From Nitrosomonas sp. Nm34 (lineage in GTDB: Bacteria; Pseudomonadota; Gammaproteobacteria; Burkholderiales; Nitrosomonadaceae), in contig NZ_FORD01000016.1 of NCBI RefSeq assembly GCF_900113925.1, positions 1-64,000 of the forward strand: DNA of 64,000 bases, in the 5' to 3' direction. The translations under genes and the position numbers were made by a program. The notes beneath the pieces are model-generated. The model was not told the DNA's origin. It searched no databases and saw nothing but the letters and a program-made list of their open reading frames with translations. Positions 17,283 to 63,367 of this stretch are shown here, piece by piece; within the stretch, counting starts at the first letter, position 1; each line of letters starts with the position of its first letter.

Positions 17283-17918
17283 GCTGAAATTCTCCTCTCT
17301 AAATAAAATGGCTTAAAAATTTATTTTGATACACGCAAAAACTTTATCATAGGTACTTTTAATAATAAACTGAAATCGCTCCTAATATTTTATTTTTATT
17401 GAATAAATAATTATTGATTCGATTAACTAAGATTGTTTTAATTACTAAGCTAATCTCATGACAATAAGCTTGCGATTTGCGTTATATAACTAGAGCTGAG
17501 GTTACAAACTTTACCTGAATGAATGTGAAAAAATTGTAAGGAAAATTTGGGGGTGTAGGGCGAGTTGAATGGGCAGTGATAGGAATGCTGTTCATTATCC
17601 GGCATTTCTATCACTACCACTGGATGTAGTGACGAGGTTAATAAGAAATAAATTACAAAGAAAGAATATTGGGTACCGCTAAAAATCCATATTTGCGAGC
17701 ATCTGCTTCGTGGATTGCCTGTTTTTCTCGTTTCGTCGCAATATTTCGTTGTTCACAAAAAATGTTCCCTCACTTATCAGTTATAGGCTGCGCCAACATT
17801 TTTTGTTCTCGCCTGTCTTGTTTAGAATTTTAAATTTTTAGAGGCGCGCTATTATAAAAATAAGATAATAAAAGATATATAAATACCGTTCCCAACTGCG
17901 ATAAAAGCATGGAGGAGA
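17283..17918. other. Intergenic region with hairpin and a repeat element
   Basis: There is no gene in these 636 bases. A hairpin is formed by AGTGATAGGAATGC (17575-17588) and GCATTTCTATCACT (17602-17615), with one G-T pair. On the minus strand it lies beyond glcF and could end the glc transcript. A 178-bp-family repeat copy follows at 17672-17846. Confidence 0.45.
17672..17846 (-). repeat. 178-bp repeat family, copy 1 (inverted)
   Basis: It matches, as a reverse complement, the copies at 28104-28281 and 41182-41359 along its length. Shared blocks include ATATTTGCGAGCATC, the central TATCAGTTATAGGCTGCG and CTCGCCTGTCTTGTTTAGAA. The ends GGTACCGCTAAAAA and TTTTTAGAGG are inverted repeats. It is non-coding and lies between glcF and the lipoprotein gene. 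Confidence 0.75.
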
Positions 17919-28103: not shown

Positions 28104-28281
28104 GGTACCTCTAAAAATTCGGAGTTCTAAACAAGACAAGGCGAGAACAAAAAATGTTGACGCAGCCTATAACTGATAGGTAAGGAACCATTGTTGGTGA
28201 ATAATGAAGTATTGTGACGAAACAGGGTAAGCAAGCAATCCGCGAAGCGGATGCTCGCAAATATGGATTTTTAGAGATGCC
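28104..28281 (+). repeat. 178-bp repeat family, copy 2
   Basis: The ends are GGTACCTCTAAAAA (28104) and TTTTTAGAGATGCC (to 28281), inverted repeats of each other. The interior matches the copies at 17672 (inverted) and 41182. It is located between the convergent greA and yhbY genes, where it may also serve as their 3' structure. No ORF. Confidence 0.8.
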
Positions 28282-35580: not shown

Positions 35581-35602
35581 TTTGAAGAATGGGTGAATTC
35601 TA

Positions 35603-41181: not shown

Positions 41182-41359
41182 GAGACCTCTAAAAAATCAA
41201 AGTTCTAAACAAGACAAGGTGAGCACCAAAAATGTTGCCACAGCCTATCACTGGTAGGTAAGGAAACATTTTTTGTGAACAACGAAGTATGGTGGCGAAG
41301 CGGGGTAAGCAGGCAATCCTCGAAGTGGATGCTCGCAAATATGAATTTTTAGAGGTGCC
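41182..41359 (+). repeat. 178-bp repeat family, copy 3
   Basis: The ends are GAGACCTCTAAAAA and TTTTTAGAGGTGCC. The interior matches the copy at 28104 nearly base for base in AGTTCTAAACAAGACAAGG, CACAGCCTATCACTGGTAGG and GATGCTCGCAAATAT. It sits between the divergent metK and gltX genes, so it lies in or near both promoter regions. Confidence 0.8.
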
Positions 41360-41494
41360 CTAAAGCAAGATCAGTAAGCTGTATTGATTTCGGTTTTTTT
41401 GTTAAAAATAAAAATATATTCCACCAGAACACTATCTTGCGTAATTGCAAGCATTGTTCTGTTTCTAATTGACATTACTCATCGCATTTTCACA

Positions 41495-56048: not shown

Positions 56049-57036
56049 GTCTGTTGCAAACGAAAAAAAGTACTCTAGGGGTGAACAACAGGATCACAGC
56101 CGTATGGCACCATGGAGCGTTCCACAAATCCAGGCCTTACTGGATCTCCCTTTCACTGATTTGGTTCATCAAGCGCAAACCATTCATCGGCAATACCATG
56201 AGGCCAATGCTGTTCAATTATCTACGCTGATTTCTGTTAAAACAGGTGGCTGCCCGGAAGACTGTGGTTACTGTCCCCAGGCCGCGCGCTATCATACCGG
56301 TGTGGAGAATCAGGATATGCTGTCGCTGGATACCGTTGTGGCCGCTGCCCAGGCAGCCAAGGCGGAAGGTGCGACACGATTTTGTATGGGAGCAGCCTGG
56401 CGTGGCCCCAAACAACGTGATATTGATAAAATGAGCGAGATCATTGGGGCTGTGAAGGTGCTGGGACTTGAAACCTGTGCGACTTTGGGCATGCTGAAAC
56501 CGGGGCAGGCCGAGCAGCTCAAACAGGCTGGTTTGGATTATTACAATCATAACCTGGATACCTCACCCGAGTTCTATGAAGAAATCATTAGCACACGCGA
56601 CTACCAGCATCGCCTCGATACCCTTGAGGAAGTGCGCAAGGCAGGCATCAATGTGTGCTGCGGCGGGATTGTGGGTATGGGGGAATCCCGGCTGGCTCGC
56701 GCTGGATTGATTGCCCAGCTGGCCAATCTGGATCCTTATCCTGAATCAGTGCCGATCAATTATCTGGTGCAAGTTGAAGGGACCCCGCTTTATGGTACGG
56801 ATCCCCTTGATCCGTTCGAGTTTGTACGTACCATTGCAGCCGCCCGTATTACGATGCCGAAAGCGATGGTCAGGTTATCTGCAGGCAGGCGGCAAATGTC
56901 AGAGGCGGTGCAGGCATTATGTTTTCTGGCGGGCGCTAACTCCATTTTTTATGGAGACAAGTTGCTGACGACAGGTAATCCCGAAACAGAGAGCGATAAA
57001 GCCTTATTTGACAAATTGGGGTTACGCACCCTCTAG
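56029..57036 (+). CDS. bioB: Biotin synthase
   Basis: A 335-residue radical SAM enzyme: cluster motif [10 protein letters not shown] (C-x3-C-x2-C, about 66-73), [28 protein letters not shown] and GGIVGMGES, with an arginine ligand of the second Fe-S cluster in RLSAGRR near the C-terminus. It inserts sulfur into dethiobiotin. The ATG at 56029 gives the usual family length; the frame is open 20 codons upstream. It is the first gene of bioBFHCD; bioA is not present here. Confidence 0.94.
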
Positions 57037-57048
57037 CCGGGAACAGGC

Positions 57049-58221
57049 ATGCTAACACATCTCTCAGCCAAACTGAGGGAACGCGAAAACGCGGGGTTAT
57101 CCCGTCGCCGGTTGATGCTCGACGGCCCTCAGATGGTTCATGCTGCGATTGAGGGAACGCATTATCTTGCTTTCTGCAGCAATGATTATCTAGGCCTCGC
57201 CAACCACCCCGCATTAATTGAAGCGGCCTGTGCGGGCGCTCAACGTTATGGCGTGGGATCAGGTGCATCCCATCTGATCTGCGGCCATTCTCTGGCTCAT
57301 CATACGCTCGAGGAAGCGTTGGCCCATTTTGTAGGGCTACCCCAGGCATTATTGTTCTCTACCGGCTATATGGCGAATATGGCAGTGATCACGTCGCTGG
57401 TCGGTCGTGGCGATGCGATTTTCGCCGACAGGCTCAATCATGCTTCTCTCAATGATGCAGCGCTGCTTTCCAAGGCCACCTTTAAGCGTTATCCCCATCT
57501 TGACTTGACAAGGCTGGAAAGGTATCTGGCGAACTCAGACGCAAGTGGTAAACTCGTCGTCACCGATGCTGTGTTCAGCATGGACGGTGACATCGCTCCT
57601 GTCGTTGAACTATTGGCGCTATGTGAGCAGTATGATGCCGGGTTGTTACTGGATGATGCTCACGGCTTCGGCATACTCGGGAAAAACGGTAACGGTGTGA
57701 CGCATGCGTTTGGTAAATTTAATGTGCGCTCACCACATTTGGTTTACATGGCCACACTCGGTAAAGCAGCGGGTGTTTCTGGTGCTTTTGTCGCGGCTCA
57801 ACCCGATATAATAGAAACACTTATCCAATTTGCGCGCCCTTATGGTTATACCACCGCTACGCCTGCATTATTGGCGCATACCCTCATGACCAGTTTGTCA
57901 TTGATCAAGCAGGAAGCATGGCGACGTGAAAAATTAATCAAACTTATCACGCAATTGAAAACCAGCCTGCACTCATTGCGTTGGCCATTAATGCCTTCCA
58001 TGACGCCCATTCAGCCATTGTTGGTAGGAGGCAATGACGAGGCCATGCATTTAAGTGCAGCGTTACGTGACAGAGGCATCCTGGTACCTGCCATCCGCCC
58101 GCCTACTGTTCCGGAGGGAAAAGCGCGCTTGCGCATTTCCTTATCAGCGGCCCACCGGGAGGAAGATGTTGAGCAGTTGAGTGAAACATTACATGATTTG
58201 GCAAAAATCATCTCATCATAG
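57049..58221 (+). CDS. bioF: 8-amino-7-oxononanoate synthase
   Basis: A 390-residue PLP enzyme of the alpha-oxoamine synthase family: FCSNDYLGLANHP, GSGASHLICGHSLAHHTLEEAL split around the substrate site, LLLDDAHGFGILG (PLP-ring aspartate and histidine) and ATLGKAAGVSGAF with the Schiff-base lysine (about 242). It condenses pimeloyl thioester with alanine. It lies 12 bases after bioB. Confidence 0.95.
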   Translation: MLTHLSAKLRERENAGLSRRRLMLDGPQMVHAAIEGTHYLAFCSNDYLGLANHPALIEAACAGAQRYGVGSGASHLICGHSLAHHTLEEALAHFVGLPQALLFSTGYMANMAVITSLVGRGDAIFADRLNHASLNDAALLSKATFKRYPHLDLTRLERYLANSDASGKLVVTDAVFSMDGDIAPVVELLALCEQYDAGLLLDDAHGFGILGKNGNGVTHAFGKFNVRSPHLVYMATLGKAAGVSGAFVAAQPDIIETLIQFARPYGYTTATPALLAHTLMTSLSLIKQEAWRREKLIKLITQLKTSLHSLRWPLMPSMTPIQPLLVGGNDEAMHLSAALRDRGILVPAIRPPTVPEGKARLRISLSAAHREEDVEQLSETLHDLAKIISS

Positions 58222-58237
58222 AAAATAGTCATGTGAT

Positions 58238-58996
58238 ATGAGTCGGCTACATGTAGAAATTTCAGGCAAAGGGCCTGATCTCGTGATGTTGCATGGCTGG
58301 GCAATGCACAGTGGTATCTGGGGCGGTATCCGCGATCAGCTGGCGCGGCATTTCCGGTTGCATTTGGTGGATCTGCCTGGTCATGGCCAGAGTTCAATGT
58401 GGGAATCCTATTCACTCGAAGCCATCGTAGCCAGTGTTGCGGAGATTTTGCCAGCGGAAAGCATCGTTTGTGGCTGGTCACTCGGCGGACAGGTAGCCCT
58501 CAAGCTGGCTTTATCTGTCCCCACGCAAGTGAGTCAGCTTGTTCTGGTCGCGACCACCCCCTGTTTTGTCAAACGAGTGGATTGGCAGTGGGGAATGGAT
58601 CAATCTACGCTGCTGCTTTTTATGGAAAATCTGGAGCATCATTATACCCAGACGCTCAACCGTTTTTTTACCCTGCAGGTCAACGGTGGATGTGATATGA
58701 CACAGGTATTAGCGCAAATACGTGACCATTTTTTCCAACATAAGCAACCTGATGGTCACGCGCTCAGGGCTGGTTTACAGATCCTGCTGACCACCGATTT
58801 ACGGGAAAAATTAGCGGATATTTCTCAACCTGTCTTACTGTTGCATGGAGAAAATGATGTGATCACGCATGTGGATGCAGCCAAATGGATGCACCAGCAA
58901 TTGCCTCACGCAAGATTAGTCAGCTTTCCACACTGTGGTCATGCCCCGTTTTTATCGCATCCGAATCAATTTATAACCAGCCTGTATGATTTATGA
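58238..58996 (+). CDS. bioH: Pimeloyl-ACP methyl ester carboxylesterase
   Basis: A 252-residue alpha/beta hydrolase with oxyanion region VMLHGWAMHSGIWGG, nucleophile elbow CGWSLGGQVAL (serine about 78), acid in LLHGENDVITHVDA and histidine in FPHCGHAPFLSHP. It frees pimeloyl-ACP from its methyl ester, ending the BioC-started route. It overlaps bioC by 11 bases. Confidence 0.94.
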   Translation: MSRLHVEISGKGPDLVMLHGWAMHSGIWGGIRDQLARHFRLHLVDLPGHGQSSMWESYSLEAIVASVAEILPAESIVCGWSLGGQVALKLALSVPTQVSQLVLVATTPCFVKRVDWQWGMDQSTLLLFMENLEHHYTQTLNRFFTLQVNGGCDMTQVLAQIRDHFFQHKQPDGHALRAGLQILLTTDLREKLADISQPVLLLHGENDVITHVDAAKWMHQQLPHARLVSFPHCGHAPFLSHPNQFITSLYDL

Positions 58997-59867
58997 TCAC
59001 ATTTTAGATAAGCGTCAGTTGCGTCAAGCATTTGAACGAGCTGCAGCCAGCTATGATCAAGCGGCCGTTCTGCAGCGGGAAGTGGGGGAGCGCATGCTCT
59101 CGCGCCTTGAATACATCAAATATACACCCGATTGGATACTGGATATGGGCAGCGGTACCGGCTATGGCAGCCGTAAGCTTATCGAGCGCTATCCGCATAG
59201 CAAACTGCTGGCCCTGGATATCGCACTCGCGATGCATTTGCAAGCGCGTCAACCTGTTCCCCGATGGCAGCAATGGTTACCGTTGGGTAAGCGCGCTATG
59301 ACGCATTATGTGGGTGCGGATATCGAGCAGCTTCCACTGCGCGATGCATGCGTCGATATGATTTGGTCAAATCTAACCATTCAGTGGTGTAACGATCTCA
59401 AGCAGACCTTTGCCGAAACCCATCGTGTTCTGAAAAAAGGGGGACTGCTGATGTTTAGCACCTTCGGCCCGGATACTTTGAAAGAATTAAAGCAGGCCTT
59501 TAAAACAGTGGACAGTTACAACCATATCAATCGTTTTACAGATATGCACGATATCGGCGATCTGCTGGTGTATAGCGGCTTTGCCACGCCGGTCATGGAT
59601 ATGGAATACATAACGCTCACTTACCAGGAAGTGATGGATATCATGCGTGATCTTAAAACCATCGGTGCGCATAATGTGACGCATGGCAGACAGCGAGGCC
59701 TGACCGGGAAAGGGAGATGGCAACAAGTCGTGAAGCATTACGAATCATTCCGTCAGGCAGGCAGGCTGCCGGCGACTTTCGAAGTGGTCTATGGTCATGC
59801 CTGGAAACCAGAGCCACGACAAGCAGTTCTCAATCCAGAAACCAGACGGAAGCTCGGTCTGGAATAA
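58986..59867 (+). CDS. bioC: Malonyl-ACP O-methyltransferase
   Basis: A 293-residue SAM methyltransferase: RQAFERAAASYDQAAVLQRE near the start, typical of BioC, motif I ILDMGSGTGYGSRKL (about 50-64), ADIEQLPLRD, and MIWSNLTIQWCNDL, the BioC hallmark. It methylates malonyl-ACP to disguise it for fatty acid elongation toward pimelate. The bioD gene follows after a 103-bp repeat. Confidence 0.94.
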   Translation: MIYDHILDKRQLRQAFERAAASYDQAAVLQREVGERMLSRLEYIKYTPDWILDMGSGTGYGSRKLIERYPHSKLLALDIALAMHLQARQPVPRWQQWLPLGKRAMTHYVGADIEQLPLRDACVDMIWSNLTIQWCNDLKQTFAETHRVLKKGGLLMFSTFGPDTLKELKQAFKTVDSYNHINRFTDMHDIGDLLVYSGFATPVMDMEYITLTYQEVMDIMRDLKTIGAHNVTHGRQRGLTGKGRWQQVVKHYESFRQAGRLPATFEVVYGHAWKPEPRQAVLNPETRRKLGLE

Positions 59868-59873
59868 ATGGTT

Positions 59874-59975
59874 ATTCCAATCCCCATCAAATATGACGCG
59901 AAGGCGAGCTGCAGACAGTATGCATCATGCGGCAAGGGGAAGCCAACCAGGTCGGTTTTAATTTAGCAATGGAGT
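59874..59975 (+). repeat. 103-bp MITE-like family, copy D, before bioD
   Basis: The ends are ATTCCAATCCCCATCAAA and TTTTAATTTAGCAATGGAGT. The last bases, GGAG where other copies have GGAA, form the ribosome binding site 9 bases before the bioD ATG. It is in the same orientation as copies A, B, C and F. Confidence 0.85.
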
Positions 59976-59983
59976 TAAACACT

Positions 59984-60667
59984 ATGCCAGCAGGCTACTT
60001 CGTAACCGGTACGGATACCGCTGTCGGTAAAACGCTCACAAGTTGCGCGTTGCTATATGCGTTTGCCAGGGCAGGTAAAACGGTGATTGGGATGAAGCCA
60101 ATCGCAGCAGGGTGCGAAAACGGTCAATGGATGGATGTGGAACGCCTTGTTGAGGCCAGCAACGTATCAGCAGCACGTGAATGGATTAATCCTTATGCGT
60201 TAGTGCCGCCGATGGCACCACATATCGCGGCTGAGCAAACAGGTCTCGTGATTGATATAACCGCTATTCAGCAGGCTTTTCAAGTGCTGCAGCAAATGGC
60301 GGAAATGGTCATTGTCGAAGGGGTCGGGGGATTTCTGGTACCGTTGGATGACCGCTACGATAGCAGCGATTTGGCGCGCGCATTGAAATTACCGGTGATA
60401 CTGACAGTAGGATTGCGGCTGGGTTGTCTCAACCATGCCTTGTTGACTGCCCGGGCTATTCATGCAAGCGGGTTAACCCTGGCAGGCTGGGTCGCTAACC
60501 AGATTGATCCTTATATGGAATGCCAAGCAGAAAACATTCGTGCCTTGCAACAACGCCTGGATTGTCCTCTGCTTGGTGTTTTGCCGTTTAATGAACAAAT
60601 AGAGGCAAAAGAATATGCTGAGTTGCTCGATATCTCGCAGCTTATTCCATTGCCCAATCAAACCTGA
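59984..60667 (+). CDS. bioD: Dethiobiotin synthetase
   Basis: A 227-residue P-loop enzyme with FVTGTDTAVGKTLTSCALL, KPIAAGCE, and VEGVGGFLVPLDDRYDSSDLA. It closes the ureido ring of dethiobiotin. The ATG at 59984 starts the conserved domain; an ORF extension to 59927 runs through the repeat and is rejected. The last codons (LIPLPNQT) and the stop lie inside the inverted repeat copy E. Confidence 0.94.
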   Translation: MPAGYFVTGTDTAVGKTLTSCALLYAFARAGKTVIGMKPIAAGCENGQWMDVERLVEASNVSAAREWINPYALVPPMAPHIAAEQTGLVIDITAIQQAFQVLQQMAEMVIVEGVGGFLVPLDDRYDSSDLARALKLPVILTVGLRLGCLNHALLTARAIHASGLTLAGWVANQIDPYMECQAENIRALQQRLDCPLLGVLPFNEQIEAKEYAELLDISQLIPLPNQT

Positions 60668-60745
60668 CCTGGTCAGCTTCGCCTGGCCGCATGATGGAAC
60701 GGTTTGCGGTTTGTCTTGGTGTCAGGTTTGATGGGAGAATGGAAT
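60644..60745 (-). repeat. 103-bp MITE-like family, copy E (inverted), at the 3' end of bioD
   Basis: Read as a reverse complement it matches the family: ends ATTCCATTCTCCCATCAAA and TTTGATTGGGCAATGGAAT, core with CAAACCGCAAACCGTTCCATC and ATGCGGCCAGG. It is the most diverged copy and the only inverted one. It overlaps the last 24 bases of bioD. Confidence 0.78.
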
Positions 60746-60764
60746 CATGCCGCAGTTAGCAGAG

Positions 60765-61727
60765 CTATTTGAGCGGCTTAAGCATGGTTTTGAACTTATC
60801 GGTTGCTTGCACCAGCGCCGAGCGAATACCGGGTTCCCATGCAGAATGACCCGCATCCTCGATAATGACATATTCGGCTTGAGGCCAGGCATGGGTTAAA
60901 TCATCTGCGCTGACAATCGGACAAACAGCATCATAACGTCCCTGCACGATGGTGGCAGGCATGCCGTGGAGCTTTTTGATATTATCCAGCAACGCATTGT
61001 GTGGCAAGAAGATGTCATGACTGAAATAGTGGGCTTCCATGCGTGCAAGCCCGAGCGCAACCGTATCGCTTGTAAAATAATTGACGGTTTCCGGACTGGG
61101 CAGCAAAGTGGAGCATCTGCCTTCATAGCGACCCCATGCACGAGCGGCAGGCATATGAATGGCGGGATCCGGGTCCATCAGGCGTTGATAATAAGCGGCA
61201 AGGATATCTTTTCGTTCATGCGGAGAGAGGGGTGCCACAAACTCTTGCCAGGCTTCTGGAAAGAAATGGCGCAGTCCATAAAGAAACCAGTCGATTTCAC
61301 TTTTGCGGCAAAGAAAGATCCCCCGCAGAATGAATCCCAGACAACGTGAGGGGTGTGCTTCTCCGTATGCCAGCGCCAATGTGCTGCCCCAGGAGCCTCC
61401 GAATACCAGCCACTGTTCGATACTGAGATATTGTCGCAATGTTTCGATATCCTCGATAAGATGAGGCGTAGTATTGTCCCGAATGTCACCCAGGGGCGTG
61501 GACCGTCCCGCTCCACGCTGATCGTAAATGATGATGCGGTAGTGGGCGGGGTCGAAGAAACGACGATGGTTGGGTGCTGATCCAGCACCTGGACCCCCAT
61601 GTAGAAACAAGACGGGTAAACCGTTAGGGTTGCCTGATTGTTCCCAATAAAGGGTATGCCGCGCATCAACTGGCAGCATTCCTTGTTGATAAGGCTCGAT
61701 TTCCGGGTAAAGCTCGGTATGTGACAT
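60765..61727 (-). CDS. pip: Proline iminopeptidase
   Basis: A 320-residue alpha/beta hydrolase of the S33 family: FLHGGPGAGSAPNHRRFFDP (oxyanion), YDQRGAGRSTPLG, nucleophile GGSWGSTLALAYGEAHP (serine about 113), WGRYEG with acidic residues that bind the N-terminus, aspartate in GRYDAVCP and histidine in DAGHSAWEPG. It removes N-terminal proline from peptides. AAGGA precedes the ATG. It is convergent with bioD. Confidence 0.95.
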   Translation of the reverse strand: MSHTELYPEIEPYQQGMLPVDARHTLYWEQSGNPNGLPVLFLHGGPGAGSAPNHRRFFDPAHYRIIIYDQRGAGRSTPLGDIRDNTTPHLIEDIETLRQYLSIEQWLVFGGSWGSTLALAYGEAHPSRCLGFILRGIFLCRKSEIDWFLYGLRHFFPEAWQEFVAPLSPHERKDILAAYYQRLMDPDPAIHMPAARAWGRYEGRCSTLLPSPETVNYFTSDTVALGLARMEAHYFSHDIFLPHNALLDNIKKLHGMPATIVQGRYDAVCPIVSADDLTHAWPQAEYVIIEDAGHSAWEPGIRSALVQATDKFKTMLKPLK

Positions 61728-61863: not shown

Positions 61864-61966
61864 ATTCCATTTCCCAACCAAACATGGCGCCAAGGCGAGC
61901 CGCAGACGGTATCCATCATACCGCAAGATGAAGCCGACCAAGCCAGTTTTGAGGTAGAAATGGAAT
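61864..61966 (+). repeat. 103-bp MITE-like family, copy F
   Basis: The ends are ATTCCATTTCCCAACCAAA and TTTTGAGGTAGAAATGGAAT; the core is GGCGCCAAGGCGAGCCGCAG. It lies in the 476-base gap between the divergent pip and patatin genes. I saw nothing else clear in that gap (61728-62203) beyond AT-rich DNA. Confidence 0.87.
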
Positions 61967-62203: not shown

Positions 62204-63367
62204 GTGAGTGAGCCGAATAATACTTTCGCACAATCATCTAAATTAGGCTTGTTTTTGACAGGTGGAGGAGCGCGCGCTGCTTATCAGGTAGGGGTGCTGC
62301 GTGCCATTGCTGAATTGTTGCCTTCTCCTGCGCATAACCCTTTTCCTGTTATTTGTGGAACCTCGGCTGGCGCCATTAATGCAGCAGGTTTGGCCATGTC
62401 GGCCACTCATTTTGCCACAGGTGTGCGACAACTGGAGGCAGTGTGGGGAAATTTGCACGTTGACCAGGTGCATCGGGCAGATCTCCTTGGGGTAATCCGC
62501 AACACGGCTCACTGTGTGGGTTCCTTACTGTCAAGTCAGGTCAATAAAAAAGCACCTTTCGCACTGCTGGATAATGCTCCCTTGAGAACGTTGCTTGGCT
62601 GCCGTCTGCCGTTTCGTGGTATTCAGCGAAGTATCCACCTCGGTGCCTTGCACGCACTGGGGGTGACCGTTTGGGGGTATACTTCAGGACAATCGGTCAC
62701 ATTTTATCAAGGGCATGAAAGTATTAAGCCCTGGAGCCGGGTGATGCGTGTAGGCGTGGCGTCACGTATTGGTATCCAGCATTTGCTCGCTTCTTCGGCG
62801 ATTCCGCTTATTTTTCCAGCCGTCCGTCTCAATCGCGAGTACTTTGGCGATGGTTCTATGCGCCAGCTCGCACCGCTCAGTCCAGCGTTGCATCTGGGAG
62901 CTGATCGTATCCTGGTGATCAGTGTGAACAAAAAAAGAGAAATCCCCCTTGAGCGTGTTAAAGTGACGAGCTATCCACCCGTCGCCCAAATCGCGGGTCA
63001 TATGATGAGTAGTATTTTTTTTGATAGCCTGGAAGTTGATCTGGAGCGCCTGGAGCGCATTAATGGTACGTTAGCGCTCATTCCGCCTGAGGCAAGAAAA
63101 GAGGGGGGCGTTTTGCTGCGCCCCATCAAATCGCTGGTGATATCACCGAGTGAAAGAATCAGTGAACTCGCGTGGCAGCATGCTTATTCATTACCGCGCA
63201 CCATGCGCTATTTATATCGTGCTGTAGGCGCAATGAGTCCGAGCGGTTCGAGATTATTGAGCTATGTTTTATTTGAAGCTTCTTATTGTCGCGCCTTAAT
63301 TGATCTTGGCTATCGTGACACGATGCAACAGCAAGATGAAATTCTTAAATTTATTACCCTGTCTTGA
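62204..63367 (+). CDS. Patatin-like phospholipase
   Basis: A 387-residue patatin-fold acyl hydrolase: glycine-rich oxyanion loop LTGGGARAAYQVG (about 18-30), nucleophile elbow GTSAGAINA (serine about 50) and catalytic aspartate in FGDGSMRQ (about 224). A C-terminal DUF3336-like helical extension follows. It likely cleaves membrane or storage lipids; no signal peptide is seen. The start GTG at 62204 is the most likely; an upstream ATG runs into a stop. Confidence 0.85.
   Translation: MSEPNNTFAQSSKLGLFLTGGGARAAYQVGVLRAIAELLPSPAHNPFPVICGTSAGAINAAGLAMSATHFATGVRQLEAVWGNLHVDQVHRADLLGVIRNTAHCVGSLLSSQVNKKAPFALLDNAPLRTLLGCRLPFRGIQRSIHLGALHALGVTVWGYTSGQSVTFYQGHESIKPWSRVMRVGVASRIGIQHLLASSAIPLIFPAVRLNREYFGDGSMRQLAPLSPALHLGADRILVISVNKKREIPLERVKVTSYPPVAQIAGHMMSSIFFDSLEVDLERLERINGTLALIPPEARKEGGVLLRPIKSLVISPSERISELAWQHAYSLPRTMRYLYRAVGAMSPSGSRLLSYVLFEASYCRALIDLGYRDTMQQQDEILKFITLS

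Follow-up and report, generated by a model that had tools for sequence, protein, structure and literature searches.

The dethiobiotin synthase gene bioD of Nitrosomonas sp. Nm34 is bracketed by two oppositely oriented copies, D and E, of one short dispersed repeat, and both of its edges differ from those of close relatives that lack the repeats. We propose, with a probability of about 0.85, that D and E are independent insertions of a MITE-like palindrome, non-autonomous and present in many copies, which goes into TNA sites and duplicates 3 bp, that E gave BioD its present C-terminal end, and that a GGAG at the end of D most likely serves bioD as its ribosome-binding site. The window analysed, a stretch of 64,000 nt, comes from a genome of 3.80 Mb in 149 contigs. 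Its biotin genes run bioF-bioH-bioC-bioD on the plus strand and are followed by pip on the minus strand; bioH, bioC, bioD and pip were named from NCBIfam matches, while bioF, and a frame upstream that we take to be BioB-like, were recognised from our own translations.

The bioC gene (58986-59867, plus strand; malonyl-ACP O-methyltransferase; TIGR02072, 265 bits) ends with a TAA at 59865-59867, and bioD (59984-60667, plus strand; TIGR00347, 161 bits against a cutoff of 83.3; PDB 1dts, E=4e-49) encodes 227 amino acids. The pip gene (60765-61727, minus strand; prolyl aminopeptidase; TIGR01249, 381.8 bits) is convergent with bioD, and copy E lies between the two. Beyond pip the window carries a gene (62204-63367, plus strand), which we take to be patatin-like, that resembles a CBASS phospholipase model far under its cut-off (43.6 of 200 bits); Nm33, a relative, has a similar frame beyond its pip as well. 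Elsewhere the window holds an Rfam anti-hemB RNA (RF02837, 45753-45835, minus strand, 61.4 bits), here in a Nitrosomonas, and an SAH riboswitch (RF01057, 39794-39873, minus strand, 58.8 bits).

The order bioF-bioH-bioC-bioD-pip is kept in two relatives, G011 and Nm33 (locus L079), and D, E and a third copy, F (61865-61965, plus strand, flanked by TGA on both sides), which lies upstream of pip, are absent from both; the Nm33 locus holds no copy of the repeat in its 8,660 bases. G011 aligns to window positions 57005-59867, then, after 4 nt of its own, to 59975-60643, and once more, past another 12 nt, from 60754 onwards, so that the window has 107 nt (59868-59974) against 4 at D and 110 nt (60644-60753) against 12 at E; around F, 379 nt in the window face 218 nt in G011. 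In G011, GGCATTAATCACC stands between the bioC stop and the bioD ATG, with a single TTA where the window has one on each side of D (59872-59874 and 59975-59977, plus strand), as expected of a target duplication. The absence of D, E and F from both relatives indicates that they were inserted in the lineage of the window, which is more likely than their parallel loss in two relatives.

In the window, repeat searches and alignment place copies on the plus strand at 35602, 43146, 51184, 59872 (D) and 61863, and one, E (60644-60745), on the minus strand. The core of about 101 nt is an imperfect palindrome that folds end to end between TNA flanks; in an alignment of 83 copies its terminal inverted repeats pair consensus positions 2-24 with 78-100 (20 pairs). 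The window copies were made into a profile, which gave 149 matches (one copy being split in two) at E <= 1e-3 in about 1.23 Mb of the genome, 115 of them in a first 830 kb and 34 in another 400 kb, and the membership of D and E in the family is therefore not a chance similarity. The whole genome probably holds several hundred copies; the densities in our samples are not fair genome estimates, since the contigs of the 830 kb were chosen for holding matches and those of the further 400 kb mostly for transposase matches. Leaving out matches that were partial or lay at stretch ends (25 of the 115) gave 90 full copies, and a further 7 of the 34 were dropped in the second sample, for a total of 117 full copies; two of the 90 were set aside for end-sequence and accessibility counts (n=88) and seven for the consensus alignment (n=83). 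Genes were predicted with a home-made codon-usage caller, which gave 648 in the 830 kb sample and 296 in the other.

The flanks carry the signature of insertion. A TNA triplet stands at 73 of the 90 left ends and at 73 of the 90 right ends, against 7.6% of genome trinucleotides, and the two 3-nt flanks are identical in 35 of the 90 full copies, where 2000 shuffles gave a mean of 18.5 and a maximum of 33; the other 55, E among them, do not have identical flanks. With a short, dispersed, high-copy unit, terminal inverted repeats, target-site duplication and presence or absence between relatives, the family has the features of a MITE. Some IS5-group insertion sequences make 3-bp TNA target duplications, like those of the repeat, but no transposase gene with the ends of the repeat, as an autonomous partner would have, was found around the 30 of 57 DDE_Tnp_1 matches and 12 of 12 DDE_Tnp_1_2 matches inspected. 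We rejected an assignment to REP/BIME, since a 101-bp unit with flank duplications is not the 20-40 bp palindrome given for REP (PMC3733652). None of the 6 window copies matches any of 4227 Rfam models, and no earlier description of the family was found in literature naming Nitrosomonas, as judged by titles and abstracts. Among 61 genomes searched, the repeat is matched in 7 of the 37 of the same genus, its own included, and the sole other match, in a genome of a different bacterial family, is a 34-nt piece (E=6e-4). Compatible double changes at the paired positions number 29 over 83 copies, where 17.9 would be expected; because this covariation is weak, and because palindromes can be homogenised, we do not claim selection on an RNA. 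Intergenic regions between convergent genes are not clearly preferred (they make up 12% of intergenic bases and hold 15 of the 88 copies), and the right end is not preferentially turned towards genes (52 of 106). A second dispersed repeat of about 175 nt was also seen in the window (17671-17844, 28107-28281 and 41185-41360; 83-86% identity, one copy inverted).

At the end of bioD the contribution of the repeat can be read directly. Copy E (60645-60744, inverted; hairpin of -43.3 kcal/mol on the bioD strand; plus-strand flanks TTA and TCA) reaches into the gene, as the first-pass annotation had noticed: from 60644 to 60667, 24 bases including the stop, the bioD frame reads ATT CCA TTG CCC AAT CAA ACC TGA, giving the last seven residues IPLPNQT, with the first base also belonging to the flanking TTA. 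When E is removed in silico the bioD frame stays open for 50 more codons. BioD ends in DISQL-IPLPNQT in the window, in DIPQL-LQQDS in G011 and in DITHL in Nm33; the tail after the conserved DIxxL measures 0-13 residues in 28 of 29 relatives, with a long fusion in the remaining one, and so is not a conserved part of the protein. In G027 (locus L021, a one-contig genome) the BioD frame runs on into a long downstream frame, presumably HNH-like, as a fusion of 446 codons in total.

We suggest that E inserted at a TTA that lay a few codons upstream of the old bioD stop, and that this stop would have drifted out of frame once E had supplied a new end. Right after E the window reads GCAGTTAGCAGAG where G011 reads ACAGGATAGCTAGCAGGG, and in an alignment by eye the old TAG can still be made out, no longer in frame; the probable remnant lies at 60757-60759 on the plus strand (TAGCAGAG, against TAGCAGGG in G011). 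At E no terminator-like site was found on the plus strand.

A second gene has been ended in the same way. The stop of a predicted gene falls inside the repeat in 2 of the 149 matches, E and C64:97624-97721, the latter lying outside the full-length set. Here the gene at C64:97036-97647 (L063:17036-17647), for an ABC-type auxiliary lipoprotein (PF03886, 41.5 bits), ends QWL-IPFLNQK inside the copy, at the opposite element end from that used by bioD and in the same register. The copy is absent from Nm33 and G011, which at this site read TGGCTTAGC and TGGCTTAGA respectively, with the TTA intact and the reading continuing past it; their tails after WL are longer (15 residues in Nm33). A stop comes after exactly seven codons of the ATT register at 59 of the 90 left ends and at 58 of the 90 right ends. 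The presence of a seven-codon tail and TGA in one register at both ends supports the view that E supplied the new end of BioD, a donation of tail and stop that we regard as established at the level of sequence; by the same reading, such donation is a property of both element ends that is rarely used. No full copy lies inside a predicted gene (0 of 90) and only D and E overlap one; three further matches among the 149 touch a stop codon at their edge. A preference of the repeat for stop codons, among which TAA and TGA fit TNA, was rejected: the 90 full copies include 3 that border directly on a stop, and 2.3 would be expected.

At the other edge, copy D (core 59875-59974, plus strand), whose terminal stem is largely lost, lies between bioC and bioD and, as had been reported for this locus, ends in GGAG (59971-59974, plus strand) nine nucleotides (59975-59983) before the bioD ATG, where the family consensus is GGAA. 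Copies end in GGAA in 54 of 88 cases and in GGAG in 4 of 88, D included, and we therefore see the GGAG as ordinary variation between copies that is here well placed. The ATG at 59984 is common to G011, with MPAGYFVTGTDT in both, and so is the BioD N-terminus MPAGYFVTG; in-frame alternative ATGs lie inside D at 59927 and 59969, and the conserved N-terminus favours 59984 over these.

Before D arrived, bioD would have begun close behind bioC. The distance from bioC stop to bioD start is 13 nt in G011 and 18 nt in Nm33, against 116 nt in the window, and each of the 36 relatives for which it was measured, out of 45 examined, has 0-25 nt (the 45 being 29 relatives together with 16 of 80 further loci, not all of them Nitrosomonas; the gap was measured where the bioC stop was recognised, and the other nine gave none). 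By entering a gap of this size D would have moved bioD 116 nt from the bioC stop, so that stop-start coupling should break, and would have put its own end where a ribosome-binding site must be. For the predicted pairing with the anti-Shine-Dalgarno sequence, the window has -5.9 kcal/mol, G011 -3.3 and Nm33 +0.4; the median of the 45 relatives is -3.6, and 10 of the 45 equal or exceed the window without having D. In the predicted fold the GGAG is partly paired, with a probability of 0.31 of being unpaired; set in the place of D, 24 of the 88 copies (D itself among them) would be at least as open. Of the 149 matches, seven others have a predicted start no more than 25 nt away. We consider it likely, from position and predicted pairing, that the GGAG of D is the putative Shine-Dalgarno sequence of bioD.

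D could also be a passive passenger, with bioD translated by coupling or reinitiation and the GGAG irrelevant. An open frame of 32 codons (59868-59966, plus strand) starts right after the bioC stop (TAAATG), runs through D and ends with a TAG 17 nt before the bioD ATG, and might, speculatively, form a translational relay onto bioD; the relatives' gaps, moreover, are short and many of these carry a weak predicted Shine-Dalgarno sequence. We hold this to be rather unlikely, in view of a GGAG that stands at a workable spacing and pairs more strongly than the sequence in either of the two nearest kin. The opposite possibility, that D has been adaptively domesticated by a decay of its palindrome that exposes the GGAG, we find distinctly improbable. 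D does keep only 4 terminal-stem pairs, where the median copy has 19 (a count of 6 or fewer is shared by just 4 of the 90 copies), its fold z is -0.55 while those of B, E and F lie between -3.8 and -5.1 (B being at -5.1), and one of the three other low-stem copies sits 23 nt before a predicted start; but the GGAG is no more accessible than its value of 0.31, which other copies match, D is no more than a diverged copy (83% identity to the family consensus), and for the other two low-stem copies the nearest start is over 100 nt away.

The first-pass annotation had held that the repeat ends were recruited into gene expression. Of this the change at both gene edges stands; in the comparison with relatives lacking the repeats for which it had called, the predicted pairing upstream of bioD and the BioD C-termini both differ, so that G011 and Nm33 do not share the window's sequence at either edge. 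Recruitment by selection, however, is unproven, since GGAG is normal variation among copies, 10 of 45 relatives pair as well, BioD tails vary freely and stop donation is rare. Set against the reading of D and E as insertions that gave bioD a new end and most likely a new ribosome-binding site are the unequal flanks of E and of the rest of the 55 copies without identical flanks, the lack of an autonomous partner around the transposase matches inspected, the partial pairing of the GGAG, the 10 of 45 relatives that pair at least as strongly without D, and the alternative starts within D.

It had further been suggested that the inverted pair might allow bioD to be inverted or transferred as a unit, in the manner of a composite transposon or an inversion cassette. 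The pair does lie close to both ends of bioD, and all 10 genes flanked on each side by a copy no more than 150 nt away are bracketed by inverted pairs, in a post hoc count over the 648 genes of the first 830 kb (contigs C64, C118, C68, C102, C146 and C69 with the window) in which bioD and pip, both among the 10, share copy E; for neighbouring copies more than 1.5 kb apart the orientation counts look even. The other bracketed genes look like housekeeping genes, which we take to be MutS-, OsmC- and aldehyde dehydrogenase-like, and the further 400 kb has no bracketed gene. Gene order and orientation are the same in G011 and Nm33, and D and E are only 76% identical with a longest identical run of 11 nt, which would make them a poor substrate for inversion. 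At fourfold sites bioD differs from Nm33 at 32 of 87 positions, and bioF, bioH, bioC and pip together at 194 of 532 (Fisher p=1.0). The lower identity of the BioD protein to Nm33 (79.5%, against 88-91% for its neighbours) had suggested a foreign origin of bioD, against which this equal synonymous divergence speaks; there is no excess of change on the window branch, with 15 window-only and 17 Nm33-only sites. As far as sequence can show it bioD was thus inherited vertically; we reject its movement as a cassette, and a mobile or invertible unit made of D and E is scarcely credible.

In its effect on genes the repeat is of an already published kind. According to PMC3049150, BOX elements of Streptococcus pneumoniae encode the stop in 36 of 58 overlapping coding sequences, at their extreme 3' ends, without strong evidence that proteins were truncated, and frames encoded by BOX are without good Shine-Dalgarno sequences. 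BOX thus resembles the Nitrosomonas repeat as a short interspersed repeat that supplies genes with stop codons, and differs in that the tails here are clearly unlike those of kin and that stop donation is confined to two matches. Insertions of QMITE1 and QMITE2 in Coxiella burnetii extend into functional genes at their 3' ends, where they can contribute C-terminal residues (PMC5896051), as E has done; at about 400 and 190 bp (PMC10969869) these elements are larger. ERIC, or RU-1, is a 127-bp intergenic MITE-like repeat of enterobacteria whose RNA affects flanking transcripts (PMC2759123, PMC2229807), and at ECA3499 of E. carotovora it appears to have taken away the normal stop and lengthened the C-terminus (PMC2759123), a change of protein end comparable to that at bioD.

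A bolder extension, possible but one that on balance we doubt, is that the repeat acts as a portable kit for gene edges, with a seven-codon tail and stop at both ends, put to use at bioD and at the lipoprotein gene, and with an end able to serve as ribosome-binding site where it faces a start codon, and that bioD expression now depends on both D and E. If so, D would replace stop-start coupling at bioD and E would replace its stop, and D would be kept open by its decayed stem, perhaps together with the 32-codon relay frame. Whether or not this is the case, the bioD locus provides, with two close relatives that retain the empty sites, a before-and-after case of mobile repeats rewriting the likely start signal and the end of a gene while the gene itself stays put, with the end of a second gene rewritten in the same register, and it documents a high-copy MITE-like family in Nitrosomonas, an ammonia-oxidising bacterium.
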